Counted from the stretch's first letter, positions 15,002 to 33,331 are shown. The stretch is 64,000 nucleotides of DNA from Hyphomicrobiales bacterium (GCA_021775755.1 JAJFHE010000003.1:1-64000), one strand, 5' to 3'. Program-made: numbers and translations. The notes: generated by a model not told the origin, from the letters alone.

Positions 15002-16258
15002 TCAGGCCGCATCCGCGGCAGATTTGCTGTCCGACACGAGGCGCCGCGCGCGCCCGGTGCCGGTTTCCTCGGCGATTTTTCTGATCGCCTCGGCCTCGCG
15101 TCTCAGTTCCTCGTCCGACATGTCGGGATAACATGGCACGACGATCATGTCCGCCAGCGCCTCGGTGGCGCGATGTGGCTCAAGCTCTTCACGGCCCTCC
15201 GGCGCCGCAACCGCCTGCGAACGCGGCAGTCCGGAACTGTCAAACCCGAGCTTTCTCAGCCCCGCGACAAAGGCGGCAGGCTTGTCCACCAGAACCGGAA
15301 ACACCCAGTAATTGTGATGCGCGTTCGCCTGGCCCGGCAGAGCCACGGCATCGCCCAGCAGATCGCGAAGCAGTTCGCCCTTGGCCGTGCGGACGTCCAG
15401 ACTGCCTTCCTTGAAGCCGTAGATGCGGCGGCACAAGAGCCCCAGCAGGCCCGCCGAGGGCTGATACCGCAGCCGTTTCGCCGAGCCGAGTTTCGCGACC
15501 CCGCGCACCCGGTCGGTTACCGCGTCTTCATAGTCGCGTCCGAAAAGCTTGAACCCGAAGTAGATCGCCGACAGCACATAGCGGCTCGCCACCAGTCGCA
15601 AGGCGGAAAACTGCAGGCAGCGCTTCAACTGCGCCTTGTTCTTCTGCATCGGATATGCCGACTGGATCTCCCGCATCCGGGCACAGAGGTCGCCATCGCG
15701 CACCCGGATAAGAGCGCCGCCCATGGCCGTTGACGTCTTCAGCGGCCCGAAACTGAACAGCGACAGGTCGGCCAGCGCATGTCCAGGATAGGCGCGCCCG
15801 TCGAAAGCCTGTGCGCAGTCCTCGACAATGATCAGACCGTGGCGCTTCGCGCAGGCGAACAGCGGCTCGAGATCGATCATCGAGCCGAACAGATGCGCAA
15901 CGACGAGCACCTTCGATTTCGGCGTGATCGCGGCCTCAAGTTGCTCCGCGGTCGGTGCCATATGCGAGATATCGAGATCGAGCGGCACGGCTGTGAAGCC
16001 TTCGCGCCGGACAATCTTGATCATTCCCTTCACGTTGAGTGCGGAAAATATGATTTCATCTTCCGCCTCAAGCTCAAGTGCCTGCAGGAGAAGATCGAAA
16101 CCCGAGCGCACCGAGAACGCGGCAATGGTATGCACATCGTCGTCCCAATACGCCTCGGCGCGCGCTGCAAGCGCATCGTGGTCGCCGGGAAACAGACAGG
16201 CGAAAGCGCCGGACATAAGGTCGCGCCAGCCGATCTTGAGTTGAGTTCTTGCCCACAT
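15002..16258 (-). CDS. DegT/DnrJ/EryC1/StrS-family aminotransferase
   Basis: A 418-residue PLP enzyme of the DegT family, usually sugar 3- or 4-aminotransferases. The cofactor-binding Asp is in IIVEDCAQAFDG near residue 147, and the Schiff-base Lys is K174 in SFGPLKTSTAMGG. AHLFGSMIDLEPL is another family hallmark. The start at 16258 (MWARTQLKIGW) is chosen because residues upstream are not conserved-looking and the family begins shortly before GDHDALAARAEAYW. It is divergent from the AspH-type hydroxylase gene (173 bp between starts). Its place at the edge of a sphingolipid locus suggests it makes an amino group on a lipid or head group; this is inference. Confidence 0.88.
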   Translation of the reverse strand: MWARTQLKIGWRDLMSGAFACLFPGDHDALAARAEAYWDDDVHTIAAFSVRSGFDLLLQALELEAEDEIIFSALNVKGMIKIVRREGFTAVPLDLDISHMAPTAEQLEAAITPKSKVLVVAHLFGSMIDLEPLFACAKRHGLIIVEDCAQAFDGRAYPGHALADLSLFSFGPLKTSTAMGGALIRVRDGDLCARMREIQSAYPMQKNKAQLKRCLQFSALRLVASRYVLSAIYFGFKLFGRDYEDAVTDRVRGVAKLGSAKRLRYQPSAGLLGLLCRRIYGFKEGSLDVRTAKGELLRDLLGDAVALPGQANAHHNYWVFPVLVDKPAAFVAGLRKLGFDSSGLPRSQAVAAPEGREELEPHRATEALADMIVVPCYPDMSDEELRREAEAIRKIAEETGTGRARRLVSDSKSAADAA

Positions 16259-16431
16259 TTTCGCTAAGACCGTTGCATATGCTGAAGCCCTCTGGCAGCG
16301 TGCAAAATGACGCGCCCGCCAGTTGATCTGGATCATAACAGTTCCAGACCGATGGGATTATCGCGTATCATAAGTCTTGGACCGCAAAAAGAGAATTCAA
16401 GACGCAACGTGTACCGACAGGGGTTCCCGGG

Positions 16432-17253
16432 ATGTCGACCACCACCGAACAAGCATCGCAAACGTGGGCTGAGCGTTTCAGGTATCAGCGGCGCAAGCGC
16501 ATCAAGCGTTTCGGCAAGAACTTCATCCGCGGCCTGTCCAGTTTCCTCGGCCGCCAGTCCCTCGTCGGTGACACCCCAGTGCTCGACAAAGAGTTGTTTC
16601 CACACGTTAAGCCGCTTGAAGCGAACTGGAAGACAATCCGTGCCGAGCTTGATGAAATTCTCAAGCATCGCGACGCCGTGCCGCTGTTTCAGGAACTGTC
16701 GCGGGATCAGAAAAAAATTTCCAAGGGCGCTAACTGGCGCACTTTCGTGCTCTACGGGTTCGGTCTGAAATGCGAGAAGAACTGCCGCCAGGCTCCTGAA
16801 ACCTCGCGTCTTCTCGAACAGGTTCCCAACCTGCAGACAGCATGGTTTTCAATACTGTCGCCACGCTTCCACATTCCAGCGCACCGCGGCGTTACCAAAT
16901 CCATCATCCGCTGCCATCTTGGGCTCATCGTGCCCAAGGATCGCGAAAACTGCACCATCCGTATCGAAGACCAGATCGTGCAGTGGAAAGAAGGTGAAGC
17001 CTTCGTGTTCGACGACACCTATGACCACGAGGTCCTGAACGACACGGATGAGGACCGCGTCGTCCTGCTGTTCGACTTCAATCGGCCGATGAAACTGCCA
17101 GGCCGCGTGCTCAACTGGGTCTTCGTCAGGCTTTTGAAGCTGACGGCCTATTATCAAGAGCCGAAAAAGAAGATGCAGTCCTACGAAGACCAGTTCGAAG
17201 CGGCCGTACGCCGCGCCGAAGCCAATCTCGAAGCACTCAGCACCGACAACTGA
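16432..17253 (+). CDS. Aspartyl/asparaginyl beta-hydroxylase-family dioxygenase (LpxO/AspH-like)
   Basis: A 273-residue Fe(II)/2-oxoglutarate dioxygenase of the Asp/Asn hydroxylase family. The metal ligands are H151 (PAHRGVTKSIIRCH) and H199 (DDTYDHEVLND), and the 2-oxoglutarate-binding Arg is R209 (DEDRVVLLFD). The bacterial branch includes LpxO, which 2-hydroxylates a lipid A acyl chain. The basic N-terminus (RRKRIKRFGKN) suits membrane association. It is followed after 224 bp by the ABC exporter and ceramide-synthase-like genes on the same strand. I infer hydroxylation of a sphingolipid or lipid A acyl chain; a protein substrate cannot be excluded. Confidence 0.88.
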   Translation: MSTTTEQASQTWAERFRYQRRKRIKRFGKNFIRGLSSFLGRQSLVGDTPVLDKELFPHVKPLEANWKTIRAELDEILKHRDAVPLFQELSRDQKKISKGANWRTFVLYGFGLKCEKNCRQAPETSRLLEQVPNLQTAWFSILSPRFHIPAHRGVTKSIIRCHLGLIVPKDRENCTIRIEDQIVQWKEGEAFVFDDTYDHEVLNDTDEDRVVLLFDFNRPMKLPGRVLNWVFVRLLKLTAYYQEPKKKMQSYEDQFEAAVRRAEANLEALSTDN

Positions 17254-17477: not shown

Positions 17478-19196
17478 ATGAAGAGCATCTTTCACATTTT
17501 CTTCAAGGTGGAAAACACGCGTCCATCGCTTGTGTTGATCTGCCTTGTGTTTGCGGGCCTTGCCGAAGCCATCGGCATGTCATCGCTCATGCCGATCATG
17601 ACGGAGCTCTCCGGCGGTCCACAGGAAGGCTCATCCGACCTTAATCGCATGATTGTGAGCGTACTTGGCGAGGTCGGCATCGCACCAACAATCACCAATC
17701 TGTTGATCCTGATCGTTACTGTGCTTGCAATTCGCACCATCCTGTCTTTCACCGCGCTCACCTATGTCGGCTACTCCGTTGCAAAGGTGACAACCAACCT
17801 GCAAAGGAAACTGATCGAAGGTCTGCTCAGCGCGCGCTGGGGATATTTCGCCAGCCAGAAAGTCGGCCGTGTGGCGAATTCGATCAGCAACGACACAAAC
17901 CGTGCCGGCAAGGCCTATCTCACCTCCGCCCGCGTTGTCGCTTACCTCCTGCAGGGGCTCGTCTATGTCACCATCGCCATTCTGATCTCGTGGAAGCTGG
18001 CGCTTGCCGGCATCACGGTCGGCGCCACGATGGCCGGAGCGCTCAGCGTATTGACACGCATTTCCCGGCGCGCCGGATACCGCCAGACCGACCGGACATC
18101 TGAACTTGTTACCTATGTCACCGACGCCCTGAACAACATCAAGCCGCTCAAGACGATGGAGCGCAAGACCGCGTTCACGGCAATGTTCGCCAAGAAGCTG
18201 ATGTCCCTGAAGCGCGCGCTCCAGCGTCAGGTCGTCGCCAAACAGGCGATGACCTACGGTGAAGAGCTCATCCTCTTCGTCTCTCTTGGCATTGGACTCT
18301 ACTTCACCGCCATCGTCCTGAAAATCCCGCTGCCCGAACTCCTGGTCATGGCGGTGGTGTTCTACAATGTCGTCAATGTCGTGGGCAAAATTCAACTCTA
18401 CCTTCAGCACGCTTCAGAACTTGAAAGCGCCTACTGGCGCGTCTACGAGCTCACCGACGAGATAATGCTCAACGAAGAGATTAATCCCGGCAAAAAGGAG
18501 CCGGCGCTGACAGCCGCCTGCCGGTTTGACAATGTCAGTTTCGGCTACGACAACGGTGCCGTAATTTCCAACGCCATGATCGACATTCCGGTTGGAGAGA
18601 TAACGGTATTGCGCGGGCCATCGGGCGCCGGCAAAACGACCCTCATCGACCTGCTCACCGGGCTCTATCAACCCGATGAAGGACAGATCCTGATTGACGG
18701 CGTACCGCTCGTCGAAACCGACCTCCACCTCTGGCGCCGCATGATCGGCTATGTGCCGCAGGAACTTTCGCTGTTTCACGACACCATCCGGCTTAACGTC
18801 ACGCTGGGTGATGAAGAACTGAGCGACGGCGACGTCCTGAGCGCCCTCGAACAGGCAGGCGCGCTGCAGTTCATCGAGGCGCTGCCGGAAGGCCTCGATA
18901 CGGTCGTCGGCGAAAGGGGCACACGATTCTCCGGCGGCGAGCGCCAGCGCATCGCACTTGCCCGCGCGCTGGTGACAAAGCCGAAGCTTCTGATCCTCGA
19001 TGAAGTGACAAGCGCGCTTGACCCTGGAACGGAACGCGCCATCTGCGACAATGTCTGCGCACTGGCGGAGCGTTTCACAATCGTCTCCATCACGCACCGT
19101 CCGATCTGGAGCAATATTGCCGACAATCTTTATGTCGTCGAAAAGGGAACCATCACCCGTGCCGAACACCCCGCTCCCGTTACCGAGACCGTCTAG
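17478..19196 (+). CDS. MsbA-like ABC exporter (fused permease/ATPase)
   Basis: A 572-residue ABC half-transporter. Residues 1-300 form the membrane domain with about six helices. The ATPase follows: Walker A GPSGAGKTTL near 375-384, signature FSGGERQRIALARAL near 478-492, Walker B LLILDEVTSAL, and SITHRP. It resembles the lipid and glycoconjugate flippase group (MsbA/PglK). The stop is 3 bp before the ceramide-synthase-like gene, so they form one operon (ABC, bCerS-like, nucleotidyltransferase). The likely role is flipping a sphingolipid or its precursor across the inner membrane, inferred from context. A weakly acidic N-terminal region precedes the first helix. Confidence 0.92.
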   Translation: MKSIFHIFFKVENTRPSLVLICLVFAGLAEAIGMSSLMPIMTELSGGPQEGSSDLNRMIVSVLGEVGIAPTITNLLILIVTVLAIRTILSFTALTYVGYSVAKVTTNLQRKLIEGLLSARWGYFASQKVGRVANSISNDTNRAGKAYLTSARVVAYLLQGLVYVTIAILISWKLALAGITVGATMAGALSVLTRISRRAGYRQTDRTSELVTYVTDALNNIKPLKTMERKTAFTAMFAKKLMSLKRALQRQVVAKQAMTYGEELILFVSLGIGLYFTAIVLKIPLPELLVMAVVFYNVVNVVGKIQLYLQHASELESAYWRVYELTDEIMLNEEINPGKKEPALTAACRFDNVSFGYDNGAVISNAMIDIPVGEITVLRGPSGAGKTTLIDLLTGLYQPDEGQILIDGVPLVETDLHLWRRMIGYVPQELSLFHDTIRLNVTLGDEELSDGDVLSALEQAGALQFIEALPEGLDTVVGERGTRFSGGERQRIALARALVTKPKLLILDEVTSALDPGTERAICDNVCALAERFTIVSITHRPIWSNIADNLYVVEKGTITRAEHPAPVTETV

Positions 19197-19199
19197 CGC

Positions 19200-20366
19200 A
19201 TGACCGCATCAAATGAACAGGGGCTGGAAATCCGGCCGGTGGTAACGGCTGAGGACCATGACCACTTCCTTGAGGTACCCTTCCGGCTGTACGGGCCCGG
19301 CGACAACTGGGTGCCGCCGCTCTATTTTGAGCGCCGCGAGCATCTGAGCGAGAAGAAAAACCCTTACTTTCGGCACGCCAAGGTCGAGCGGTGGATCGCC
19401 TTGCGGGGCGGCAAACCCGTGGGACGCATAACCGCGCAGCGGTGTAAGCTGTTTCAAGAGCGCTTCGGCAAGGACAAGGGGCAGTTCGGATTTCTCGAAG
19501 CGGAGAACAACGACGAGACCTTCGACGCTCTCATCATGACCGCTTGCCTGTGGCTTGCCGAACGCGGTGTGGAAACCCTGTCGGGTCCCTTCAGTTTCTC
19601 CATCAATGACGAGACCGGCGTTTTGGTCGACGGCTTCGACACGCCGCCATCGATGATGATGAACCACGCCCTTCCCTACTATGCAACGCAGCTGGAACGT
19701 CTCGGCTTCCAAAAGGCAAGAGACCTTTACGCCTATGATTATGCGCTCGATACCGAGTTGCCGAAATCGCTGACCGCAATGCTCGACCGCGTGCGGGCAT
19801 CGGGCGATTTGATGCTGCGCAATATCGACATGTCCAATCTCGACAAGGACGTGGACACCATCATTTCAATCTTCAACGATGCCTGGCGCGACAACTGGGG
19901 CTTCGTGCCTATGACGTTCGAAGAGATCAAGGCGCTCAGCAACAATCTGAAGATGCTGGTGCGCTCGGAGTACGGCGCCATCGCCTATTACAAGGGCGAG
20001 CCCGCCGCAATGTGCATCACGCTGCCTAATATCAACGACGCCATTGCGGATCTTAATGGCCGCCTACTGCCGTTCGGTTGGGCAAAGCTTCTGTGGCGGC
20101 TCAAGCTGCTCCCGCCGCGCACCTTGCGCATGCCTCTGCTCGGTGTGCGACAGAAATACAAGTCCGACTTTGTCGGCTCGGCACTCGTTGCGGCGGTCAT
20201 GGAGAATGTCCAGTCCTATCACAAGGCGCGCGGCACCACCCATTGCGAACTGTCCTGGATCCTTGAAGACAACAGGCCGGTCCGCAAGCTCATCGATTTC
20301 ATGGGTGGCAGGCACTACAAGACCTACCGTGTTTACGAACGCTCCGTCGCAAGAGCGGGCACGTGA
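19200..20366 (+). CDS. bcerS: GNAT-fold protein, bacterial ceramide synthase (bCerS) candidate
   Basis: A 388-residue protein of the large GNAT-like family to which the Caulobacter ceramide synthase belongs. That enzyme N-acylates the long-chain base made by serine palmitoyltransferase and is unrelated to eukaryotic ceramide synthases. Visible features: FRLYGPGDNWVPPL near residues 28-41, VGRITAQ, GPFSFSINDETGVLVDGFD near 125-143, and a C-terminal GNAT-like segment with CELSWILEDNRPVRKLID, typical of the double-GNAT architecture. It lies between the ABC exporter (3 bp) and a nucleotidyltransferase (4-bp overlap), in a locus with spt, acpR, cerR and aasR homologues. The name is by family and context. 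Confidence 0.8.
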   Translation: MTASNEQGLEIRPVVTAEDHDHFLEVPFRLYGPGDNWVPPLYFERREHLSEKKNPYFRHAKVERWIALRGGKPVGRITAQRCKLFQERFGKDKGQFGFLEAENNDETFDALIMTACLWLAERGVETLSGPFSFSINDETGVLVDGFDTPPSMMMNHALPYYATQLERLGFQKARDLYAYDYALDTELPKSLTAMLDRVRASGDLMLRNIDMSNLDKDVDTIISIFNDAWRDNWGFVPMTFEEIKALSNNLKMLVRSEYGAIAYYKGEPAAMCITLPNINDAIADLNGRLLPFGWAKLLWRLKLLPPRTLRMPLLGVRQKYKSDFVGSALVAAVMENVQSYHKARGTTHCELSWILEDNRPVRKLIDFMGGRHYKTYRVYERSVARAGT

Positions 20367-21154
20367 GCGGCGAGCGCTATTCGGCACTCGTACTGGCCGC
20401 GGGCCGCGGCAGCTCCGACCCCATGGTGCAGGCCTACGGAATTGCCCACAAATGCCTTCTCGACGTCGGCGGAGAACCGATGATCATGCGGGTGCTGAAA
20501 GCGCTAGCCGCCTCTGACCGCATCTCAGGGATTGCAATCTCCATAGACGATGCATCAGCGCTCGAGGCTGCCGCCGGATTCGCCCAACTCGCCGCGAATG
20601 CATCCATTGCCGTTGTTGCAAGCGCCGATCAGGCAAGCTCAAGCGTCGCACAAGCAATCGCGTCCGGTGCGGTTTCCTATCCGGTTCTGGTCACCACCGC
20701 CGATCACGCCCTGCTAACGCCGGACATCGTCGAAGAATTCTGTACCGGATCCCTCGCCACCGGTGCCGATCTCACGGTCGGCCTGGCGCGCGAGCGTACG
20801 ATCCTGGATGCCTATCCCGATTCCGTCCGTACCTTTCTAAGGTTCGCCGACGGCAATTATTCAGGCTGCAATCTCTTTTCATTCGCGACGAACAAGGCTG
20901 AGCGTGCCGTCGCGTTTTGGCAGAAGGTCGAGCGCAACCGCAAAACGCCCTGGAAACTGATTGGAGCGTTCGGACTTGTGCCACTCGTGCGCTATGTCAC
21001 CGGCACTTTGTCATTGAAGGCAGCGTTTGAAGGCGGTTCGCGCAAGCTGAACCTGAAAGCCTGTCCTGTCGAACTAAGCGCCGCGGAAGCCGCAATCGAT
21101 GTCGACAAACCAGCCGATCTGGAGCTTGTGAACGCGATACTTTCGCGCAAATAG
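20363..21154 (+). CDS. MobA-like NTP transferase
   Basis: A 263-residue nucleotidyltransferase of the MobA/GT-A-like fold. The N-terminal loop LVLAAGRGSSDPM (residues 9-21) occupies the place of the canonical LAGGxGxRMG loop but lacks its Arg, and TTADHAL near residue 111 is the expected metal-binding Asp region. The start is GTG, overlapping the preceding stop by 4 bp (GTGA), so translation is coupled to the ceramide-synthase-like gene. It probably activates a head-group alcohol or sugar with CTP or GTP, or has become a scaffold. Similar genes accompany Caulobacter-type ceramide loci. It ends 4 bp from the convergent LicC-like gene. Confidence 0.82.
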   Translation: MSGERYSALVLAAGRGSSDPMVQAYGIAHKCLLDVGGEPMIMRVLKALAASDRISGIAISIDDASALEAAAGFAQLAANASIAVVASADQASSSVAQAIASGAVSYPVLVTTADHALLTPDIVEEFCTGSLATGADLTVGLARERTILDAYPDSVRTFLRFADGNYSGCNLFSFATNKAERAVAFWQKVERNRKTPWKLIGAFGLVPLVRYVTGTLSLKAAFEGGSRKLNLKACPVELSAAEAAIDVDKPADLELVNAILSRK

Positions 21155-21158
21155 CCGG

Positions 21159-21896
21159 CTATTCTACCCAGCCGGCCACCATCTGGCGGGCCTGCTGAAG
21201 GTCGACGGGAAAATCGACTTCGCACCACTCATGATCGCTGACGGCGCAAACGCTCACATCGGTCAACTTGGCGAGCGTCCCAACAGCCGAGGGAAACCAT
21301 TGCCTGAGGCCCGTTGGATCGAGCATGGCCTTTTCAAGAACATCGCGGTAGAGCGCCGCCCCTTCGCCCCGGAACACATAAATGCCGATCGCCTCGGCCG
21401 TGACCGCCTCAAGCGGCAGCGTCTTGCCGATTTCGGTCAGCCGCTCTCCGTCGAGCATGACCTTCATGTCGTCGTTATCGTATTTTTCTTTGTGATTGAT
21501 CGCAACCGTCACCGGCAAATGTGGGGCGTCGAGCAGATCCTTCACCATCGCGGCGCGAAACAGGTTGTCGCCGTTGACCTGGATAAAATCGTCATCCATT
21601 TCGCCACGCGCCATCCAGCAGCTTGCCAGATTGTCTGCCACTGAGAAAAACGGATTGTAGACCGTGCGTATGGAAATGCCGTCGTTGCGCCCTTCAATCT
21701 GCCGCAGCATGTCGGTCATCATGCTGCTTCCGTAGCCGGTGATGACGACAAATTCCGTAACCCCGCATGCCACAAACGCATCGATCTGACGTTCGATCAA
21801 TGTGCGGCCATGAATGTCGAGGAGAGCTTTTGGAACCTCTTCGGTGAGCGGCAGCAGACGTTTCCCCTGGCCAGCCCCCAGGATCAGCACTTTCAC
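21159..21896 (-). CDS. LicC-like phosphocholine/sugar-phosphate cytidylyltransferase
   Basis: A 245-residue nucleotidyltransferase. The signature loop LILGAGQGKRLLPLTEEVPK (residues 4-23) and VNGDNLF (about 110) are intact, unlike the neighbouring MobA-like protein. VYNPFFSVADNLASCW is typical of the LicC branch, which makes CDP-choline or related CDP-alcohols from CTP; sugar-phosphate nucleotidyltransferases are close relatives. It is the only minus-strand gene in the middle of the island, convergent with the MobA-like gene and divergent from the phosphoesterase gene, sharing about 100 bp of upstream DNA. I infer it supplies an activated head group; the substrate is open. Confidence 0.82.
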   Translation of the reverse strand: MKVLILGAGQGKRLLPLTEEVPKALLDIHGRTLIERQIDAFVACGVTEFVVITGYGSSMMTDMLRQIEGRNDGISIRTVYNPFFSVADNLASCWMARGEMDDDFIQVNGDNLFRAAMVKDLLDAPHLPVTVAINHKEKYDNDDMKVMLDGERLTEIGKTLPLEAVTAEAIGIYVFRGEGAALYRDVLEKAMLDPTGLRQWFPSAVGTLAKLTDVSVCAVSDHEWCEVDFPVDLQQARQMVAGWVE

Positions 21897-21997: not shown

Positions 21998-22918
21998 ATG
22001 GTAACGATCGCGCATCTGTCAGATCCCCATCTCGCTCCCCTGCCCCGCCCCGGTGTGAGGCGCCTGATGAGCAAACGGGTTCTCGGCTACGCGAACTGGC
22101 TGCGCGGGCGGCGGGATTTTCATCGCCGCGAGGTCGTCGATCTCATGATCGCCGACCTCAACGCACATGCGCCCGACCATACGGTGGTCACGGGCGACCT
22201 GGTGAACCTCTCGTTGGAAGAGGAGTTTCCCGCAGCGCGCCAGTGGCTGGAGACGATCGGATCACCACCGCGTGTAACCGTTGTTCCGGGCAATCACGAT
22301 GCCTATGTAAAGGTACCGTGGTCGAAGAGCCTGGCGCTGTGGCAGGACTACATGCAAAGCGACGCCGACGGCGCGTCTTTCGTCAAAAGCAACGAGCCCT
22401 TCCCGTTCGTACGCCGGTTGGGTTCCGTGGCGGTAGTGGGACTGTCGTCGGCCGTACCGATGCCGCCGCTGATCGCCGGCGGCAAGCTGGGCGATGTGCA
22501 ATTACGGTCTCTGGCGAATATTCTGAAACGCCTCGGAGAAAGCGGACTTTTCCGCATTGTCCTCATTCATCACCCGCCTCTTCCAGGGCAGAACATCACT
22601 CGCAAGGCCTTGTTCGATTCCGCCGAAATGCGCAACGTCCTCGCGGGCGAAGGCGCGGAACTCGTGCTGCATGGCCACAATCATCGCGACATGCTGACAA
22701 TGATCGATACGCCACACGGGACCGCGAACGTGATCGGCGTGCCCTCGGCATCCGCCGCCATCAACGGCCACCGCCCCGCCGCTCAGTACAATCTTTATCA
22801 TGTGAGCGGAACCGCGGGCGCCTGGCAATGCGAGGTCGAGATCAGAGGGTACGATCCCGCGGCAGCCACCTTTGGCCCGGTCCGCAGCTTTTCGCTGGAC
22901 ACCGGCCAGACCGCTTGA
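21998..22918 (+). CDS. Calcineurin-like metallophosphoesterase
   Basis: A 306-residue metallophosphoesterase. All metal-binding motifs are present in order: HLSDPHL near residues 6-12, TGDLVN near 63-68, PGNHDA near 94-99, LIHHPP near 190 and LHGHNHRD near 220. Members hydrolyse nucleotides, phospholipid head groups or UDP-diacylglucosamine-type substrates (LpxH, CpdA). No signal peptide is visible, so it acts in the cytoplasm. It opens the plus-strand run that continues with HIT, lptF, lptG and the head-group genes, separated from the HIT gene by 56 bp. A role in trimming a nucleotide-activated lipid intermediate is plausible inference. Confidence 0.88.
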   Translation: MVTIAHLSDPHLAPLPRPGVRRLMSKRVLGYANWLRGRRDFHRREVVDLMIADLNAHAPDHTVVTGDLVNLSLEEEFPAARQWLETIGSPPRVTVVPGNHDAYVKVPWSKSLALWQDYMQSDADGASFVKSNEPFPFVRRLGSVAVVGLSSAVPMPPLIAGGKLGDVQLRSLANILKRLGESGLFRIVLIHHPPLPGQNITRKALFDSAEMRNVLAGEGAELVLHGHNHRDMLTMIDTPHGTANVIGVPSASAAINGHRPAAQYNLYHVSGTAGAWQCEVEIRGYDPAAATFGPVRSFSLDTGQTA

Positions 22919-24662: not shown

Positions 24663-25735
24663 TGTGGACGCTCGGCCTCTTGTTGTCCCGCATGCTGCTC
24701 TCCAGGTTTGTGATGATCCTGTTGGGTGTGAGCGCCTTTGTCCTCAGCCTTGATGTGGTGACCTACGCGGACGACATCCTGAAGCTTCACAATGACGACC
24801 TCTCGGCAGTCGCTGAATATGCCGTCCTGCGTGCGCCAGGCATTCTGTCGAGTTTCCTCGGCTTAAGCGTCCTGCTTGCAGCCCTCATCATGCTGACGGA
24901 AATCAGCCACCACAGCGAACTCGTTGCCATCTGGGGTGCCGGGGTGTCGCCGGTGCGCATGATGATCATGCTGCTGCCGCTCGCCCTGCTGATCGGCGTG
25001 GTTCAGTTCGTCTTGAGCGACCGCGCTATTCCAAGCGCCGCGCCGGTTCTGCACGAATGGGGTATTGGCGACTACAGCAACAAGCAACTCAGCGTCGGCG
25101 AACAGGATCCAATCTGGATGCGTTCCGGCGACGACGTGTTGCGTGCCGGTTACAGCAACGCCAAAGCAACCTCTTTGCGCGATGTCATTATTTTCCGGCG
25201 CGATCCGTCCGGGTTACTGGTTGAGCAGATCATGGCGCAGACGGCGGAACTTATCGACGGGCGCTGGGAACTACGCGACGTCGCCATCTACTACCGCGAC
25301 AACGTCCCGCCAAGCCGCGTCGGACGGCTTATCTATTCCGGGCTGATGCGACCTGCCGATGTCGGCACCCGGTCGGGCGACCCGGAAGAAATGTCGATGG
25401 GAGACCTGAGTTACTTTGTTGACAATGCAGGCTTCGGCATCAGGCCCCTGCACGTCTACACGACCTGGTTCCACAAGCGTATTTCGCTTTTTCTCACCGG
25501 CGCCCTGATGATCGCCATCGCGGTGCCGCTGGCCGGCCGTTACCGGCGCGGCGGGGGTCTTGGAGCATTGTTCGCCGCCGGCGTCGGTCTCGGTTTTGCG
25601 TTCTTCGTGCTCGACGGCATATCCATGACACTTGGCGAGCTTGGCGTGCTGCCGGGCTGGATGGCCGCCTGGATGCCGATGGCAGTGTTCGCCACGGCCG
25701 CGACCACAATTGCATTCCGTCACGAAACGCTTTAG
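24659..25735 (+). CDS. lptG: LptF/LptG-family permease (LptG-like)
   Basis: A 358-residue partner of the preceding LptF-like protein. Two or three N-terminal helices (LSRFVMILLGVSAFVLSLDVV near residues 14-34, then SSFLGLSVLLAALIMLTEI near 63-81 with GVSPVRMMIMLLPLALLIG after it), a periplasmic beta-rich domain near 125-255, and three C-terminal helices. The coupling helix region includes ELVAIWGAGVSPVR, the contact site for an LptB-like ATPase. Translational coupling (ATGA overlap) with lptF implies stoichiometric production. No lptB, lptA or lptC gene is visible nearby, so the ATPase would be shared or encoded elsewhere. Confidence 0.87.
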   Translation: MMWTLGLLLSRMLLSRFVMILLGVSAFVLSLDVVTYADDILKLHNDDLSAVAEYAVLRAPGILSSFLGLSVLLAALIMLTEISHHSELVAIWGAGVSPVRMMIMLLPLALLIGVVQFVLSDRAIPSAAPVLHEWGIGDYSNKQLSVGEQDPIWMRSGDDVLRAGYSNAKATSLRDVIIFRRDPSGLLVEQIMAQTAELIDGRWELRDVAIYYRDNVPPSRVGRLIYSGLMRPADVGTRSGDPEEMSMGDLSYFVDNAGFGIRPLHVYTTWFHKRISLFLTGALMIAIAVPLAGRYRRGGGLGALFAAGVGLGFAFFVLDGISMTLGELGVLPGWMAAWMPMAVFATAATTIAFRHETL

Positions 25736-25766: not shown

Positions 25767-26993
25767 TTGAGTAAGCTCTCAGTGACTGATCGTTCCAAGA
25801 ACCCTTCAACGGCAAAACCCCACATGCCGCACGAGCCGGCGCCGTGCGTGTGTTTCATCGGCATGTCCGATGTAAAGCTCTGGGGCATGACGCCGGCGGA
25901 ACGGATGTTGAAGCTGCTCGCGCCGCACGGCATCGGAAACGTCGTATCGGAAGACGATCTGAAAGGTTCCGGACCATCGGTCATCCTGATCCGTGCCGAT
26001 GCCGTTCTCGATGTGCCGATTGTGCCTCTGCTGATCGGCGATGTCGGTCTGGTTCTTCTGGGCGAAGAGACAGCCACCGAAAGGCCGGTCGCGGTTCATT
26101 CCCCACCCGAACATGCCGCCGAGGCGGCAAAGATACTGGTCGATGGCAATGATCGTGTACCCGTCTACTTCAGGGCGAAGATGAAGCGCCCGGGCGAACT
26201 CGATGCCTCCTACTGGAAGGCTCTGCGCAAGCGCGAAAATCCTTATGCGCTGACCATCGGCCGCGACAACGCCCGCAGCGTTGAATGGCGCAGTTTCATG
26301 GGAACATATAAGGGGGCGACCGATGTCGTCACCAAACACCTTTGGCCCTGGCCCGCGTTCCACGTCACCCGCTGGATCGCTCCCACCGCGATTACGCCGA
26401 ACCTTGTCACGGCTTTGAGCGCGGTCTGTGTCGTGCTCGCATTCTGGCTCTTCATGGAAGCGCACTGGGCGCTTGGGCTGGCCGCGGCCTGGGCCATGAC
26501 CTTTCTCGACACCGTCGACGGCAAGCTCGCGCGCGTCACGTTGACGTCAAGCAAATGGGGCAATGTGTTCGATCACGGCATCGACCTCGTTCACCCGCCC
26601 TTCTGGTACGCCGCATGGGCGGTGGGCCTCGGTGCGACTGAGTACGCGCTCGAGGCGGAGTATTCCCTGTGGATACTCGGCGCCATAATTGCAGGCTACA
26701 TTCTTCAGCGCCTCATGGAAGGCGCCGCCATAGCCTGGCTCGGCCTGGAAATTCACATCTGGCGCAGGATCGACACTCTGTTCCGCCAGATCACCGCGCG
26801 GCGCAATCCCAATCTCGTCATCATGACCGTCAGCGCCATCATAGGCCGGCCCGATTGGGGCCTCATCGCGGTGGCGGCATGGACAGTACTTTGTCTTGTT
26901 CTGCACGGGCTGCAGCTGCTTCAGGCATTTGTCGCGAAGAGCCGCGGTGGAAACCTGCAGTCGTGGATGAATCAGCAGGCGGGCACATCATGA
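25767..26993 (+). CDS. CDP-alcohol phosphatidyltransferase with N-terminal extension (CpgA-like)
   Basis: A 408-residue membrane enzyme. The CDP-alcohol phosphotransferase motif is perfect at residues 248-273: D248, D251, G252, A255, R256, G265, D269 and D273, in a membrane domain of about six helices. It should transfer a phospho-alcohol between a CDP-linked donor and an acceptor. The first about 150 residues are an extra soluble domain (VILIRADAVLDVPIVPLLIG) resembling a degenerate nucleotidyltransferase without the GxGxR loop. The TTG at 25767 is the outermost start; ATG at 25824 is possible. It overlaps the kinase gene by 4 bp. Position and order match the Caulobacter head-group (cpg) genes. 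Confidence 0.85.
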   Translation: MSKLSVTDRSKNPSTAKPHMPHEPAPCVCFIGMSDVKLWGMTPAERMLKLLAPHGIGNVVSEDDLKGSGPSVILIRADAVLDVPIVPLLIGDVGLVLLGEETATERPVAVHSPPEHAAEAAKILVDGNDRVPVYFRAKMKRPGELDASYWKALRKRENPYALTIGRDNARSVEWRSFMGTYKGATDVVTKHLWPWPAFHVTRWIAPTAITPNLVTALSAVCVVLAFWLFMEAHWALGLAAAWAMTFLDTVDGKLARVTLTSSKWGNVFDHGIDLVHPPFWYAAWAVGLGATEYALEAEYSLWILGAIIAGYILQRLMEGAAIAWLGLEIHIWRRIDTLFRQITARRNPNLVIMTVSAIIGRPDWGLIAVAAWTVLCLVLHGLQLLQAFVAKSRGGNLQSWMNQQAGTS

Positions 26994-27961
26994 AGTCCGG
27001 CGTCATCATCAATCCGAAGTCCGCCAAAACAGGCCGCAAGGGTCGCGCACTTTCGCAGGCACTTGCTGCAACGCCCGATGTGTTGACCTCAACGCTCGAT
27101 GATTTTTCACTGCTTCCGGAAATTCTGAAATCATATGCCGAGCAAGGTGTGGAAGTATTGGCGGTCAGCGGCGGTGATGGCACCGTGCAATCGGTCCAGA
27201 CACACCTTATTGAAGGCAAGATTTTCAAGAACCTGCCCAGATTGGCGGTTCTGCCGCATGGCACGACGAACATGACGGCAGCCGATGTCGGGCTGAGAGT
27301 TACTGCACCCCAGCAAGTCGCCGCTCTGTTGAACCGGCCCGGCTACCTTGCCCGCGCCACCAACGTTCGCACCCGGCGCACGGTCAAGGTGCAAAATCTT
27401 GGCGGCGTCTCAACCCAGCATGGGATGTTTTTCGGCACCGGTGCGATCTACCGCGCTGTTCTGCTGTGCCAGCGAGACATTCACGGGCTCGGCCTCAAGG
27501 GTGAAATTGCCAACGGCGTTACCTTGATCACCACCCTTGCCCGGTCGATCTTTGCGCGCGCTTCCGACCAGGGCGATGCCGATCGCATCGATCGCGGCTA
27601 CGCCATGACAATTACGGCCGATGGCGAGCTCAAGGCATCCTACGATCAGCTGCTTTTTCTCGCCACGACACTCGATCGCCTGATCCTCGGCATGCGGCCG
27701 TTCTGGAATGTCGAGCGCAACAAACTGCGAGCCACCGCCATCGCCTATCCGCATCCCAACATCTTCAGATATCTCCTGCCGGTGATGTATGGTGGCGATG
27801 AACGCCGGCTGCCGGAACCCGATTTCACCAGTTTTTCCGCCGAGCGCATCGGCCTTGCGACGGAAGCGAGCATGGTTATCGACGGAGAGATATTCGAGCC
27901 GCCCGAACGCGGCGAAATCAAGGTGAGCACCGGCCCGCAGTTTGAGTATTTTTGCGGCTGA
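26990..27961 (+). CDS. Diacylglycerol/ceramide kinase-family lipid kinase (CpgB-like)
   Basis: A 323-residue lipid kinase of the DAGK catalytic family. The nucleotide-binding GGDGT is at residues 61-65 (AVSGGDGTVQSV), with the N-terminal GVIINPKSAKTG and LPHGTTNMTA, which corresponds to the family PxGTxND stretch though with NM in place of ND. The start at 26990 overlaps the preceding stop (ATGA), which fixes it against several upstream in-frame codons. In Caulobacter the homologous kinase beside spt phosphorylates ceramide; I infer the same here. It is followed 14 bp later by a nucleotidyltransferase-like gene, giving a coupled three-gene head-group module. Confidence 0.87.
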   Translation: MKSGVIINPKSAKTGRKGRALSQALAATPDVLTSTLDDFSLLPEILKSYAEQGVEVLAVSGGDGTVQSVQTHLIEGKIFKNLPRLAVLPHGTTNMTAADVGLRVTAPQQVAALLNRPGYLARATNVRTRRTVKVQNLGGVSTQHGMFFGTGAIYRAVLLCQRDIHGLGLKGEIANGVTLITTLARSIFARASDQGDADRIDRGYAMTITADGELKASYDQLLFLATTLDRLILGMRPFWNVERNKLRATAIAYPHPNIFRYLLPVMYGGDERRLPEPDFTSFSAERIGLATEASMVIDGEIFEPPERGEIKVSTGPQFEYFCG

Positions 27962-27975: not shown

Positions 27976-28878
27976 ATGACAGACGCCAATCAGAGCGACA
28001 TGCGAAAGATAATCGAGCGGCAATGTTCGCGCGATCTCGATCCGGCCGTCGTCGCGTTGGCGGACGCTGCACGGGCGCAGCTTGGCGGATCCGTCGCGGC
28101 GGTTCTCGCTTATGGGTCATGCCTGCGCGGTGTGAGCACCCGGGAAAGTCTGGTCGATCTCTACGTCCTGGTAACCTCCTACGGCGATGCACATGCCTCG
28201 CGCGCGGCACAGATTGCCAACAGGATCCTGCCACCGAACGTCTATTATCTCGAGGCTGATCACCTCGGTGACACGCTGCGGGCGAAGGTTGCAGTTGTGT
28301 CGCTGGATCAGTTCGCCTCGAAAGTCCGGAACACCACGCAAAACCCCTACTTCTGGGCACGCTTCGCGCAGCCTTGCACCATCGCATTTGCAAACGACGA
28401 GACCACCCGTGAGCAGGTCGTGGACGCCCTGTGCCGCGCCGTCGAGACGTTCCTTGAAAGCGCATCCGGACTGTCATCCGAGCCACTGGATATTTCCGAT
28501 TTGTGGGTCACCGGACTGCGCGCAACCTATGCCACGGAGCTTCGGCCCGAAGATACATCGCGCGCGCAAAGCATCGTTGCCGCCGACCCCGGCCACTACC
28601 GTGAACTGGGAGAGGCGTGGCGCCGCGCCGGCGGGACCTTGAATGCTGGAGGGGCTGCGCGCTCATGGTTCTGGCGCCGCCTGACGGGGAAGACCTTGAC
28701 CGTCCTGCGCCTCATCAAGGCAGCCTTCACCTTCCAGGGCGGTGCCGACTACATCGCCTGGAAAATCGCCCGCCATTCAAATGTCACGATCGACGTCAAG
28801 CCGTGGCATCGCCGCCACCCCATATTGGCGGCGATTGCGCTTTCACCACACCTCTACCGCAAGGGCGGGTTCCGCTGA
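27976..28878 (+). CDS. Nucleotidyltransferase-fold protein of the ceramide head-group module (CpgC-like)
   Basis: A 300-residue protein whose N-terminal part resembles a polymerase-beta-type nucleotidyltransferase: VLAYGSCLRGVSTRESLVDL near residues 42-61 matches the GSxxxG...D pattern, with DLYVL as the likely metal-binding element. The C-terminal half is basic and partly hydrophobic (KTLTVLRLIKAAFTFQGG, then HPILAAIALSPHLYRKGGF), suggesting membrane contact. It follows the kinase by 14 bp and ends 7 bp from the convergent spt gene. In Caulobacter a gene of this type stands in the same position and is needed for the anionic ceramide head group. The enzymatic step is not established from sequence. 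Confidence 0.78.
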   Translation: MTDANQSDMRKIIERQCSRDLDPAVVALADAARAQLGGSVAAVLAYGSCLRGVSTRESLVDLYVLVTSYGDAHASRAAQIANRILPPNVYYLEADHLGDTLRAKVAVVSLDQFASKVRNTTQNPYFWARFAQPCTIAFANDETTREQVVDALCRAVETFLESASGLSSEPLDISDLWVTGLRATYATELRPEDTSRAQSIVAADPGHYRELGEAWRRAGGTLNAGGAARSWFWRRLTGKTLTVLRLIKAAFTFQGGADYIAWKIARHSNVTIDVKPWHRRHPILAAIALSPHLYRKGGFR

Positions 28879-28885: not shown

Positions 28886-30091
28886 CTACTCTGCGGCGCG
28901 TGTCTCGCGGTGCGCGACGACATTTCCGAAAAGCTCGATAATCTTGTCGATATCCGCGTCGGAATGCGCAGCCGATACGCTGCAGCGCAGAAGGCATGAG
29001 TTGTTCGGCGTTCCCGGCGGCAGCGCCAGATTTACATATACGCCTTCCTGCAAAAGCGCGTTCCACATGGCAACCGTGGAGGCTTCGTCCTCGACATGCA
29101 CCGCCACCACCGGGCTGACCACATCGCAGCACATCTTGAGGCCGAGATCCTTGAACCCCTCATGCAGCCGCTTTGAGTTGTAGCGCAGCCGGTCGCGAAA
29201 CTCGGGGTGCTGAGCCAGTTCGCGCACGGCCGCCGTCGACGTTGCGATGGTCGAAGGCGAAGGTGAGGCGGTGAACATGTAGGCCCGTGTCGCATAACGG
29301 ATGAGATCGAACAGAGGATGGTCGCTGGCGCCGAACCCGCCGATCGACCCTATGCTCTTTGAGAATGTGCCGACGATGAAGTCGACCTCGTCCTCAAGCC
29401 CGGCCTCTTCGGCAACACCGCGCCCGTTCTCGCCGAGCACACCAAAAGAATGCGCCTCGTCAAGCAGCAGCGTGTAACCGTACTCGCGCTTCACATCGAT
29501 GAATTCCTTGAGCGGCGGGCGGTCGCCATACATGGAGTAAATGCCCTCAAGAATGACCAGACGGCCACCCTCGCCTTCATCGTTCGCCCGGGCCAGACGC
29601 TTCGCCAGATTGTCGGGATCGTTGTGGCGAAAACGCACCAGCTGGGCGCCTGACACCGCGCAACCATCATAGATGCTCGCATGCGAATCCGCATCGAGAT
29701 AGACGGTATCATTTGCGCCGGCGAGGCCGGCGATCATACCGAGATTTGCCTGATAGCCCGTAGTGAACACGATGACGCTGCGCCGGTTCAGAAACTTCGC
29801 CAGTTCCTCTTCAAGTTCGCGATGCATCGCATAAGTGCCATTGGCAACGCGCGAACCCGTTGTACCGGTACCAAAATCGTCCAGCGCCCGCTTGCCCGCT
29901 TCGATGCAACTCTCCGCAAACGTGATCCCCATGTAGTTGTTGGTCCCGGCAAGAACCGTCTCGCGGCCGTTTATGATCGCATGGGTCGGCGACAGAATAC
30001 GGTCGATGCACACGACAACTTCGTCGAGGCCGGCCTGAAGCATCTTCTGCTGCCGTTCGAGCAGATGCGCATGTTTCTGCATCAGATCCAT
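28886..30091 (-). CDS. spt: Serine palmitoyltransferase (AONS-family PLP enzyme)
   Basis: A 401-residue alpha-oxoamine synthase. It condenses serine with an acyl thioester to give a 3-keto long-chain base. Visible: ANGTYAMHRELEE near residues 83-95, LDEAHSFGVLG with D211 and H214, and the PLP lysine K245 in GTFSKSIGSIGGFG, followed by FTASPSP. The family also includes 8-amino-7-oxononanoate and 5-aminolevulinate synthases. The dedicated ACP gene ends 4 bp upstream, and cerR and aasR lie further upstream on the same strand, which supports the sphingolipid function. The start at 30091 (MDLMQKHAHL) is preferred because a longer frame would overlap the ACP gene. Confidence 0.9.
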   Translation of the reverse strand: MDLMQKHAHLLERQQKMLQAGLDEVVVCIDRILSPTHAIINGRETVLAGTNNYMGITFAESCIEAGKRALDDFGTGTTGSRVANGTYAMHRELEEELAKFLNRRSVIVFTTGYQANLGMIAGLAGANDTVYLDADSHASIYDGCAVSGAQLVRFRHNDPDNLAKRLARANDEGEGGRLVILEGIYSMYGDRPPLKEFIDVKREYGYTLLLDEAHSFGVLGENGRGVAEEAGLEDEVDFIVGTFSKSIGSIGGFGASDHPLFDLIRYATRAYMFTASPSPSTIATSTAAVRELAQHPEFRDRLRYNSKRLHEGFKDLGLKMCCDVVSPVVAVHVEDEASTVAMWNALLQEGVYVNLALPPGTPNNSCLLRCSVSAAHSDADIDKIIELFGNVVAHRETRAAE

Positions 30092-30095
30092 TGGC

Positions 30096-30347
30096 TCAGG
30101 CTCCTTCAACGCGTGCACGCACCACGGCCACAAGGTCTTTCAAGGTGCGGGTTTCCGACAGAACATTGAGCGGAATATCGATATCGTACTTGTCTTCGAC
30201 CTCCATCACGAAATCCATCACCGATACGGAATCGATGTTGAGATCGGCGGAGATATCGGTTTCAAGCGAAAGCTCGACCTTCTCGGTATTGAACGGTTGC
30301 ATCAGCGTGCACAGTTCCTCGAAAATGTCTGCGTCACTCGTCGTCAT
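30096..30347 (-). CDS. acpR: Dedicated acyl carrier protein for ceramide synthesis
   Basis: An 83-residue acyl carrier protein. The phosphopantetheine attachment serine is S40 in DLNIDSVSVMDFVMEVED. Acidic composition and length are usual for ACPs. In the Caulobacter pathway a dedicated ACP carries the acyl chain activated by the neighbouring acyl-ACP synthetase and delivers it to Spt. Its stop lies 4 bp before the spt start, so both are probably translated from the same message in coupled fashion. The gap upstream to cerR is 98 bp. It is distinct from the housekeeping AcpP, which would sit in the fab cluster. Confidence 0.9.
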   Translation of the reverse strand: MTTSDADIFEELCTLMQPFNTEKVELSLETDISADLNIDSVSVMDFVMEVEDKYDIDIPLNVLSETRTLKDLVAVVRARVEGA

Positions 30348-30445: not shown

Positions 30446-31384
30446 TCAGATCCAGCCGGCATCGCGGTACCACGCAACGGTTTCCTCAAATCCCTGCTCG
30501 AATCCTATCTGCGCCGACCATCCGCTGTGATCGCGCAGCAGGTTGTTGCGGCAGACCCAGTCTTCAAAATAGAGCTCAGAAACCTTTTCAGGTGTCAGCT
30601 CCGGCATTCTGTCCCCCCATTTGGCGAACCTGACCTCGACCCGCCCGACAATTCTCAGCGCCGCCTTCGGCAGAAACACGCAACGGATCCGGCGTCCCTG
30701 CAGCCGCCCGGCGATTTCAGCCATCTCTTCCCACGAATATCCATCGGGGCGTCCGTCATCGAGTTCGAAAACATCACCGGCGACATTTTCACCCGATGCC
30801 AGCTTGACGAGCGCATCGGCGAGATCGCGGGCGTGGATGAGCGAAACCCGGGCCGCACGGCTCCCCGGTATGAACGCCACGGGCCGCAATAACTGGCGCA
30901 GCAACGGCAGCGTCGCCCAGTCGCCCGGTCCATAAACAGCCGCGGGCCGCAATATCGTCCAATGAAACGCGTCGCCGGCCTGGCGCACCAGATCCTCGCC
31001 GCCGCGCTTCGTTGCGGCATAGTGAGAGATGTCGGGTTTGCGGGCAGCAAGAGACGACAGGTAGACAAAGCGTTTCACTCCGGCCTTTTGCGCCTCGGCA
31101 ACGATATTCCGCGTTCCCTCGACGTTGACGTCTGCAAACCTTTCCGCACTCGTTGCGGAGATAAGCCCGGCACAGTGCAGTACGCAGGGCGCGCCGTCGC
31201 ACAGCTCCGCAAGCGCCGGCCCTTGCGAGAGATCGCCCTGGACAATCTCAGCATCGCCAAGATCATGATCACCGGGCTTGCGAACCAGAAGCCGCGCCTT
31301 CAGCCCCTTCAGGTTCAAGCGTTCAATTAGGTGCTTGCCGACAAACCCGGTCGCACCGGTGACGGCGACATCAACTTTCGACAT
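30446..31384 (-). CDS. cerR: NAD(P)-dependent epimerase/reductase, ceramide reductase (CerR) candidate
   Basis: A 312-residue extended SDR. The Rossmann motif is VTGATGFVGKHL at residues 8-19 and the catalytic Tyr/Lys pair is in SHYAATKRGGE near 138-142. LHCAGLIS and LRPAAVYGPGDW are typical of the epimerase/3-beta-HSD-like branch. In Caulobacter the homologous enzyme reduces the 3-keto group after N-acylation, which is the reverse of the eukaryotic order. It is the second gene of the minus-strand set, 132 bp downstream of the acyl-ACP synthetase gene and 98 bp before the ACP gene. No signal peptide or membrane segment is visible. Confidence 0.87.
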   Translation of the reverse strand: MSKVDVAVTGATGFVGKHLIERLNLKGLKARLLVRKPGDHDLGDAEIVQGDLSQGPALAELCDGAPCVLHCAGLISATSAERFADVNVEGTRNIVAEAQKAGVKRFVYLSSLAARKPDISHYAATKRGGEDLVRQAGDAFHWTILRPAAVYGPGDWATLPLLRQLLRPVAFIPGSRAARVSLIHARDLADALVKLASGENVAGDVFELDDGRPDGYSWEEMAEIAGRLQGRRIRCVFLPKAALRIVGRVEVRFAKWGDRMPELTPEKVSELYFEDWVCRNNLLRDHSGWSAQIGFEQGFEETVAWYRDAGWI

Positions 31385-31516
31385 GCCGTTTCACATTCTC
31401 AATTTCCCGTCCGGCAACCGGCACGCAAACCTGTTGCTGCCGGGCCCGCCCATAAGTGCGTCAGGCGCCAATCGTCCAAGTCATTCAATCTGAAAGAGAC
31501 GCTAAATTACGGCGTT

Positions 31517-33331
31517 CTATTTTGCGCCCTGCACTGCGTGCATCGGCTCCGCGTCCACGCCGATACCAGCGAAGGTTTCCGGCACAAATTCCTGAATATC
31601 GCCCGACACGTACCGCACTTTTGCGCCTGCACGGGAAAGTTTGCCGGAAGAAGTAAACGGCAGACTCTTTGGCGGCACCAGCGCGATATGACATTCAACA
31701 CCGGCGGTCTGGTGAACGACCGCCGCCACTTCGCGGCGCAGCACTTCGCGCTCTTCCTCGTCATGCAGCCGACATTGCACGAGCACCACGACATCGTCGT
31801 CCCCGCCATCGCCCTCGACCGCAATCGCCGCCACATCACCACCGCGCAGGGGTTCGACCCGTTCAGCAGCCCACTCGATATCCTGTGGCCAGATATTGCG
31901 GCCGTTGTGCAGGATCAGATCCTTGCTGCGACCAGTGATCACGATTTCACCGTCAAGCAGGTAGCCCATATCGCCGGTCGCAAGCCAGTCATCTTCAAGC
32001 ATGACTGCCTCGGTCGCTTCATCGTTTTCGAAGTAACCGGTCATCAGGCTCGGGCCCTTGATCATGATGTGGCCGATATCGCGTTCGCCCAGCGTCTCGC
32101 CGGCATCGTTGCGCACTTCCACTTCATGGCCTGGAATCGGCCGCCCGCAGGTCACGAAATAACGCACACGGTCGGGATTTCGCTTCACCTCTTCGGTGGC
32201 CGGAACCGCCTTGCGCGTCAGTTTGCACTGTGCCCGGTCGACGCAATCGACACGGAACGTGTCATCGCGGTCGGTAAAGGTCACAGCAAGCGTAGCCTCC
32301 GCCATGCCGTAACTCGGCATGAACGCCTTGGGATCGAATTTTGCCGGCGCCATCTTCTCCGCGAAATACTGCAGAACGTCGGGGCGCACCATGTCACCGC
32401 CAATGCCCGCCACACGCACGCATGACAGATCATAGTCACCTGCCGAACCGTTGACGCGGCGCGCCGCAAGGTCGTATCCGAACGACGGGCTGAACGTGGT
32501 GGTGCAGCGGTTCTCCGACATGATTTTCAGCCACAGTGCCGGCCGCCGTGCAAAGGCCGTCGTCGGCAGGTAGTCAACCGTGTGCTGTCCCAGCACCGGC
32601 GACAGACAGAACCCGACCAGTCCCATATCGTGATAGAGAGGCAACCACGACATGGCCCGGTCATCGTGCGTCGTCTTCGTGCCTTCGCGCAGAATGCCGT
32701 TGGCATTCGTCATGATTGCGCGCTGCGAGATGAGGACGCCCTTGGGGTTACTGGTGGATCCTGAGGAATACTGAATGTAGGCGATGTCATCGCGGCCGAA
32801 CGGCACGAGATCGACACCGCCATCGGGTGCACCGGCAAGTTCGCTGTGGGTCAGAAGATTGCTGACGCCGACCATTGCCGCCGCATCGGAAATCTGGCCG
32901 CGCATTTCATCGGTCGCGACAACCGCTGATGCGCGCGCGCTCATCATCATGCCGGCAATCCGCTCGACATAGGCATCGCGTCCGCCGATATACATGCTGT
33001 AAGGCATCGGACACGGAACTAAGCCGGCATACTGACAGCCGAAAAACACTTCGAGAAACTCACGGCTCGTTTCGCCGACAACGGCAACCCGTTCACCGCG
33101 TTTGAGACCGGTTTTGATCAGCCGCCGCCCCGTGGCGATGGCTGCATCGCGAAGATCGCGATAGCTCAGAACATCTTCGAGATTTCCGCGCCCGGAATAA
33201 AAGTTAAACCCGGTGCGTCCCCGTGCGGCATAATCGAGCCCTTCTGCGAGGGTATCGAACCCGCCAGCACGATGCGCAAGATCCGTGTTGGATGCTTCAA
33301 GTAGCCGAAGTTCTGGGAGAGAAAATGTCAT
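31517..33331 (-). CDS. aasR: Fatty acyl-AMP ligase/acyl-ACP synthetase (AasR-like)
   Basis: A 604-residue ANL-superfamily enzyme of the fatty acyl-AMP ligase type. The AMP-binding motif is YIQYSSGSTSNPKGVLIS near residues 168-185, with WLPLYHDMGLVGF following, and the C-terminal catalytic lysine is K564 in FTSSGKLSRAG. It activates a fatty acid with ATP and loads it on the ACP encoded two genes downstream. The gene heads the minus-strand operon aasR-cerR-acpR-spt, so the 324 bp upstream of it should hold the operon promoter. It overlaps none of its neighbours, and its length is usual for the family. Confidence 0.9.
   Translation of the reverse strand: MTFSLPELRLLEASNTDLAHRAGGFDTLAEGLDYAARGRTGFNFYSGRGNLEDVLSYRDLRDAAIATGRRLIKTGLKRGERVAVVGETSREFLEVFFGCQYAGLVPCPMPYSMYIGGRDAYVERIAGMMMSARASAVVATDEMRGQISDAAAMVGVSNLLTHSELAGAPDGGVDLVPFGRDDIAYIQYSSGSTSNPKGVLISQRAIMTNANGILREGTKTTHDDRAMSWLPLYHDMGLVGFCLSPVLGQHTVDYLPTTAFARRPALWLKIMSENRCTTTFSPSFGYDLAARRVNGSAGDYDLSCVRVAGIGGDMVRPDVLQYFAEKMAPAKFDPKAFMPSYGMAEATLAVTFTDRDDTFRVDCVDRAQCKLTRKAVPATEEVKRNPDRVRYFVTCGRPIPGHEVEVRNDAGETLGERDIGHIMIKGPSLMTGYFENDEATEAVMLEDDWLATGDMGYLLDGEIVITGRSKDLILHNGRNIWPQDIEWAAERVEPLRGGDVAAIAVEGDGGDDDVVVLVQCRLHDEEEREVLRREVAAVVHQTAGVECHIALVPPKSLPFTSSGKLSRAGAKVRYVSGDIQEFVPETFAGIGVDAEPMHAVQGAK

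Follow-up and report, generated by a model that had tools for sequence, protein, structure and literature searches.

An extended sphingolipid island with a hydroxylase and a DegT-fold enzyme in a Hyphomicrobiales genome lacking LpxC and LpxB

Introduction

Which lipid is built by the genes at positions 15002-33331 of a 64,000-nucleotide stretch of DNA from a Hyphomicrobiales bacterium (GCA_021775755.1, JAJFHE010000003.1), and where does this lipid go? The stretch, called the window below, covers positions 1-64000 of contig C13 in the draft genome G000, which has 5.47 Mb in 77 contigs and is 99.45% complete. The original prediction described the locus as an extended sphingolipid island, in which a ceramide pathway of the Caulobacter type is accompanied by head-group, transport and modification genes of which only part had an assigned role. 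A comparable cluster is known from Caulobacter crescentus, where the 17 genes CC_1168-CC_1152 comprise five ceramide genes, six genes for the ceramide-phosphoglycerates CPG and CPG2, a second LptC/LptF/LptG set and a possible flippase (PMC11324152). Within this pathway CpgB has been described as a ceramide kinase (PMC10331486) and CpgD as a phosphoglycerate cytidylyltransferase (PMC12275187), while the route of sphingolipids to the outer membrane is stated as unknown (PMC11324152).

Protein families were assigned by Pfam and NCBIfam profile scores against the model cut-offs, to which synteny, motifs, trees and structure models were added. The comparisons cover 61 relatives, mostly one species per family, and 240 genomes drawn across the class. 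Taken together, the results favor the reading, to which we give a probability of roughly 0.6, that the island builds and exports an anionic, hydroxylated ceramide-phosphoglycerate of the CPG/CPG2 type which takes the place of lipid A, with the Lpt system as its way out.

Results

The island holds 17 intact genes, and every gene named in the original prediction was recovered as an open reading frame (ORF) with family support. The order is degT (minus strand), hyd, the ABC exporter gene, cerS, a cofC-like gene, cpgD (minus strand), the phosphoesterase gene, the HIT gene, lptF2, lptG2, cpgA, cpgB and cpgC, followed on the minus strand by spt, acpR, cerR and aasR. The same block was found in the same order in nine relatives from several families as well as in G330, G363 and G332. 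Therefore, this is no chance grouping, and, as the prediction required, the additional genes accompany spt in other genomes as well. About 15 of the 17 genes correspond in kind and order to the similar block CC_1168-CC_1152, with aasR, cerR, acpR, spt, cerS, the ceramide kinase, CpgA, CpgC, CpgD, the CofC-like transferase, the phosphoesterase and LptF2/LptG2 in common. What is new in comparison with the described system is only the hydroxylase and the DegT enzyme, which have no counterpart in the C. crescentus cluster. The head-group genes, both nucleotidyltransferases, the phosphoesterase and LptFG have already been described. Thus the lack of an assigned role, suggested for part of the set, holds for these two enzymes, but not for most of the others, for which genetic or biochemical roles are known from C. 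crescentus (PMC11324152, PMC12275187, PMC10331486). An island on plasmid p1 of Roseomonas mucosa (NZ_CP147881.1, L239) likewise shares the core, head-group, LptFG, HIT, cerS and cofC genes. It differs in a PF04116 hydroxylase instead of the PF05118 enzyme, a flippase of another family and the presence of glycosyltransferases, and no DegT homologue was found on plasmids.

Lipid A is the anchor of lipopolysaccharide (LPS). Beyond what had been predicted, G000 lacks LpxC and LpxB, for which not even a loose first look gave a candidate, whereas both are present in Caulobacter vibrioides. Among the relatives, LpxC is absent in 10 of 12 genomes with Spt (G000 included) compared with 2 of 49 without it, so that the same model is positive in 47 of the 49. 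LpxB is absent in 30/44 Spt-positive and 1/31 Spt-negative genomes (Fisher p about 3e-9, not corrected for relatedness). Both genes are also missing from G057, which is assembled in one contig and 100% complete. Loss of LPS is known in sphingomonads and has been stated for Sphingomonas koreensis (PMC11324152); in the open-licence literature we found no report that ties LpxC loss to sphingolipids in these bacteria, nor one on how widespread LPS loss is in Hyphomicrobiales. As a separate observation, the 98% complete relative G053 has no LpxC, LpxB, LptF/G, LptD or close Spt and appears to have lost the whole LPS system without this sphingolipid pathway.

LptD is kept in G000 and in 18 of 20 LpxB-less genomes with Spt. 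The island encodes LptF2 (23439..24662, plus strand; PF03739, 1.4e-61) and LptG2 (24659..25735, plus strand; PF03739, 9.6e-58), which form clades of their own in the tree, distinct from canonical LptF and LptG. No canonical pair exists in G000: apart from a very divergent pair on contig C38, the island pair is the only one, and it is the only pair of the usual kind. The number of LptF/G copies follows the predicted lipids, with a median of 4 where both lipids are predicted and mostly 2 where only LPS or only sphingolipid is predicted. Compared with LPS transport by LptB2FGC-A-DE, the LptF/LptG homologues of the island and the LptD of the genome are thus retained, but the island pair belongs to a separate clade and, judging from the genes, the usual cargo lipid A is not produced. 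The copy numbers, the clades, the retention of LptD and the case of G053 are most simply read as transport of the sphingolipid by Lpt.

The first of the two additional enzymes, at 16432..17253 (plus strand), is an Fe(II)/2-oxoglutarate hydroxylase related to OlsC and LpxO (PF05118, 1.3e-51, 175 bits with a cut-off of 22.6) and a candidate ceramide acyl hydroxylase. OlsC is the 2-hydroxylase of the ester-linked acyl chain of ornithine lipids, and LpxO, like OlsC, introduces a hydroxyl group at C-2 of acyl chains in membrane lipids. The island enzyme shares the family and the catalytic residues with them, and its His/His/Arg active site (H151, H199, R209) is invariant in 51 sequences. Nevertheless, we rejected its assignment as plain OlsC (NF052565, 243 bits against a cut-off of 450) or plain LpxO (NF033391, 111 bits against 500), as it lies on a branch separate from both. 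It also differs from them in its linkage to spt. G154 carries a true OlsC as well as an island-type hydroxylase on different branches of the tree. The strict clade occurs only in genomes with sphingolipid genes, namely 10/10 among the 61 relatives, where G059 is counted by its island as its contig ends before spt, and 9/9 among the 240 class genomes. With a looser cut 10/12 and 11/12, respectively, were sphingolipid-positive. The strict-clade enzyme co-occurs with spt even when it is located on another contig, and in G384 its gene lies between cpgC and cpgB, inside the cpg operon. A scan of genome contigs with the hydroxylase as query gave three loci only.

In Caulobacter, N-acyl hydroxylation has been assigned to CC_0202, a DesA-type enzyme encoded outside the cluster (PMC11324152), and in R. 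mucosa the PF04116 fatty-acid hydroxylase adjoins cerS in place of the PF05118 enzyme. Three unrelated hydroxylase families hence appear to fill one role. No report tying an OlsC/LpxO-like enzyme to bacterial sphingolipids was found in the open-licence literature. Two to four hydroxylase copies each, some far from the island, are present in G001, G040, G039 and G351, which suggests variants with different substrates.

The second enzyme, the partner of the hydroxylase, is a DegT-fold pyridoxal phosphate (PLP) enzyme and candidate aminotransferase at 15002..16336 (minus strand; PF01041, 5.2e-33, 115 bits with a cut-off of 19.8). Its PLP residues Lys200 and Asp173 are present, and its structure model has the fold of sugar aminotransferases (Z about 31) with an extra helical segment near residues 233-264. 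GDP-perosamine synthase and ArnB are the best structural matches (Z about 30-31) and have the PLP lysine and aspartate in common with it, but identity is about 20%, and the constant association with the hydroxylase sets the island enzyme apart. None of the NCBIfam equivalogs for ArnB, PseC, WecE, RfbH and DesI reached its cut-off, the best score being 85 bits against 631. The subfamily was found in 16 genomes and has a hydroxylase neighbor in all 16, with one intervening ORF in G139 and G254. This adjacency holds on contigs without spt (G154, G222, G254, G039); in G039 degT and hyd overlap by 4 bp, and in G351 the two enzymes form a single uninterrupted frame of 686 amino acids (L222:9184-11241) that retains the two domains and the two active sites. 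Islands without degT occur in G001, G003 and G009, while degT without hyd was not seen among the genomes surveyed. As occurrence is nested, with degT within hyd and hyd within spt, the data suggest that DegT acts on, or after, the product of the hydroxylase. Our guess is that it would aminate a hydroxylated ceramide or a keto intermediate. No glycosyltransferase or sugar dehydratase adjoins the pair, and no DegT relatives were found on plasmids. A link of the pair to lipid A loss was rejected, since LpxB is kept in 4 of 6 class-level DegT-positive genomes besides G000.

All five genes of the Caulobacter-type ceramide pathway are present, as had been predicted. AasR (31517..33331, minus strand) is a fatty acyl-AMP ligase or acyl-ACP synthetase (NF006624, 753 bits). 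The dedicated acyl carrier protein AcpR (30096..30347, minus strand) was identified by the models for this family and has a DSV site, and CerR (30446..31384, minus strand) is an NAD-binding reductase (PF01370, 2.2e-28) with YxxxK at 122. The possibility that Spt (28886..30091, minus strand) belongs to a biotin or heme branch was raised with the prediction and can be dismissed: the protein exceeds the cut-off of 500 of the serine palmitoyltransferase model NF047599 with 589.8 bits, its nearest PDB chains are serine palmitoyltransferases (2x8u, 4e-129; 2jg2, 9e-123), and the models for BioF, Kbl and ALAS score below their own cut-offs. CerS, the ceramide synthase (19200..20366, plus strand), gave no Pfam or NCBIfam match, but its AlphaFold model has a tandem GNAT fold (Z 22.1 over 302 residues). 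It is 36-56% identical to the CerS proteins of other islands and 44% to that of R. mucosa. A MsbA-type ABC exporter (17478..19196, plus strand; PF00664 and PF00005) is a candidate inner-membrane flippase and a possible counterpart of CC_1166. Its gene adjoins hyd and cerS in relatives and aasR in G037.

For each of the six head-group genes an intact candidate was found. CpgA (25824..26993, plus strand; PF01066, 4.2e-12), the counterpart of CC_1159, is a CDP-alcohol phosphotransferase with an N-terminal domain whose motif DTVDGKLARVTLTSSKWGNVFDHGID is intact and which shows 54-63% identity in most relatives. CpgB (26990..27961, plus strand; PF00781, 9.5e-13), corresponding to CC_1160, contains GGDG and lacks CxxxCxxC, as described for ceramide kinases (PMC10331486). 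CpgC (27976..28878, plus strand) has no Pfam match and was assigned as the counterpart of CC_1161 by position, length and conservation only. CpgD (21159..21896, minus strand; PF00483), the counterpart of CC_1152, is a predicted phosphoglycerate cytidylyltransferase in which R13, K23 and D110 match the active-site residues R16, K26 and D112 named for CpgD (PMC12275187). After cerS follows a MobA/CofC-like nucleotidyltransferase corresponding to CC_1153 (20363..21154, plus strand; PF12804, 2.8e-12). The counterpart of CC_1158 is a metallophosphoesterase (21998..22918, plus strand) recognized by NCBIfam phosphoesterase models and by a syntenic metallophosphoesterase in R. mucosa; an ORF at 21943-22959 was rejected as a gene because it is the shadow of this one. 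Besides, a HIT-family protein (22975..23412, plus strand) is the probable counterpart of CC_1157, as the syntenic R. mucosa ORF is annotated as HIT family.

The conserved block is slightly longer than 15002-33331, as two further genes hold the flanking places in many relatives. A NUDIX hydrolase (14470..14937, minus strand; PF00293, 1.6e-19) occupies the same place in about ten relatives; its membership of the island is uncertain, and as a candidate it could have CDP-activated intermediates as substrate. On the other side, a 184-amino-acid ORF with a C-terminal hydrophobic stretch and no NCBIfam match (33656..34210, minus strand) adjoins aasR in G001, G007, G057, G039, G049 and G025, in the last of these although the island is split.

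Related gene sets were seen at other places. On C38 of G000, at about 18000-34800 (L233, L234), a second cluster encodes a BioF/SPT-like synthase, 32% identical to Spt and below all named cut-offs, together with a short-chain dehydrogenase/reductase, an inositol-phosphate synthase, a PgpA-like phosphatase, CTP_transf_1, a GT4 glycosyltransferase and the divergent LptF/G pair. Similar sets exist in G043 and in part in G022 and G040, and the product may be an inositol-type amino lipid. Moreover, in Escherichia coli spt lies next to yghO together with acp, a cerR-like gene, a fatty acyl-AMP ligase gene and an additional LptF/LptG pair, and the four-gene stretch was matched in 4107 of 5426 complete E. 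coli genomes. A conjugative plasmid of Klebsiella michiganensis carries a similar spt/acp/cerR-like/ligase set. This observation covers E. coli genomes and the records NZ_MG591698.1 (L240) and NZ_CP106839.1 (L241).

Discussion

The reactions that we infer for the island follow from gene content and from orthology by family, motif and order, with the pathway roles taken from C. crescentus (PMC11324152, PMC12275187, PMC10331486). AasR would load a fatty acid onto AcpR, and Spt would condense the AcpR-borne acyl group with serine. N-acylation by CerS and reduction by CerR would then yield ceramide, which CpgB is expected to phosphorylate, and CpgC, CpgA, CpgD, the CofC-like transferase and the phosphoesterase would add glycerate phosphates. 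By analogy with OlsC and LpxO the PF05118 enzyme would hydroxylate the lipid, most likely at C-2 of the N-acyl chain, and the DegT-fold enzyme, where present, may modify the same lipid, probably by adding an amine. The ABC exporter would flip the product, and LptF2/LptG2 would pass it to the housekeeping LptD. As the lipid A genes are lacking, the sphingolipid is probably the main outer-leaflet lipid of this organism.

Several points weigh against this reading. Twelve class genomes with Spt keep LpxB, and therefore sphingolipids do not imply lipid A loss. LpxC is present and LpxB absent in G009, and G017 lacks both genes while it keeps an LptG of the canonical type. G126 has spt without lipid A genes, LptFG or LptD and without a head-group kinase or LptFG near spt; thus the Lpt route is not universal. 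LptC2, which belongs to the C. crescentus cluster, was not seen among the island genes, and no genome-wide search was made for it. The genome counts, many of them from metagenome-assembled genomes, are not phylogenetically independent events. For one-to-one orthology with the CC_ genes we relied on domains, gene order, motifs and the comparison with the R. mucosa island. Alternatively, assembly gaps or divergent Lpx proteins could have produced a false absence of lipid A, for G000 is a draft of 77 contigs and G003 is incomplete, as are some of the other relatives. This is highly improbable, however, since two independent genes without loose candidates are missing from a nearly complete genome, the complete single contig of G057 lacks them as well, and the same LpxC model detects its target in almost all relatives without Spt.

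Another question is whether the hydroxylase and DegT belong to the pathway at all. The island might be an ordinary CPG2 island whose two additional enzymes are mere neighbors acting elsewhere, for example on ornithine lipids or a surface glycan, given that the closest named relative of the hydroxylase is OlsC, that DegT enzymes mostly aminate nucleotide sugars, as the two best structural matches illustrate, and that three islands lack degT. We regard this as unlikely, because the strict hydroxylase clade is confined to sphingolipid-positive genomes where spt was tested, even from another contig, because the gene lies inside the cpg operon of G384 while true OlsC forms a separate branch, and because DegT always adjoins or is fused to the hydroxylase with no accompanying glycosyltransferase. 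The main rival for DegT, also rather doubtful, is an amino-sugar role: the enzyme would supply the amino sugar of a glycosylated head group on the sphingolipid, while the hydroxylase would modify the acyl chain on its own. The fold, active site and retained PLP lysine are those of sugar aminotransferases, and glycosphingolipids are made by C. crescentus when phosphate is limiting (PMC11324152). Yet the fusion and the constant neighborhood link DegT with the hydroxylase and not with the head-group genes, no named sugar-aminotransferase model gives the protein a score anywhere near its cut-off, and the pair has no sugar dehydratase or glycosyltransferase beside it.

We therefore return to a hydroxylated ceramide-phosphoglycerate exported by Lpt as the preferred reading. 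A more far-reaching version is offered tentatively: in a Hyphomicrobiales lineage a hydroxylated phosphosphingolipid would have taken over from lipid A and would pass from a dedicated LptF2/LptG2 pair to the ordinary LptD, and a two-enzyme module, sometimes fused, would hydroxylate and then aminate ceramide to an amino-ceramide not yet described.

Caulobacter requires sphingolipid once LPS has been removed in the laboratory. Nature seems to have made a similar LPS loss here, in another order than in the laboratory strain. Genomes that lack LpxC and LpxB, keep LptD and carry LptFG inside the island are natural experiments which make the transport of sphingolipid by Lpt testable, and the set includes species, G057 and G363, whose genome is a single complete contig. 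Small and tractable, the hydroxylase-DegT pair and its fusion protein offer a target in the search for a new lipid modification.

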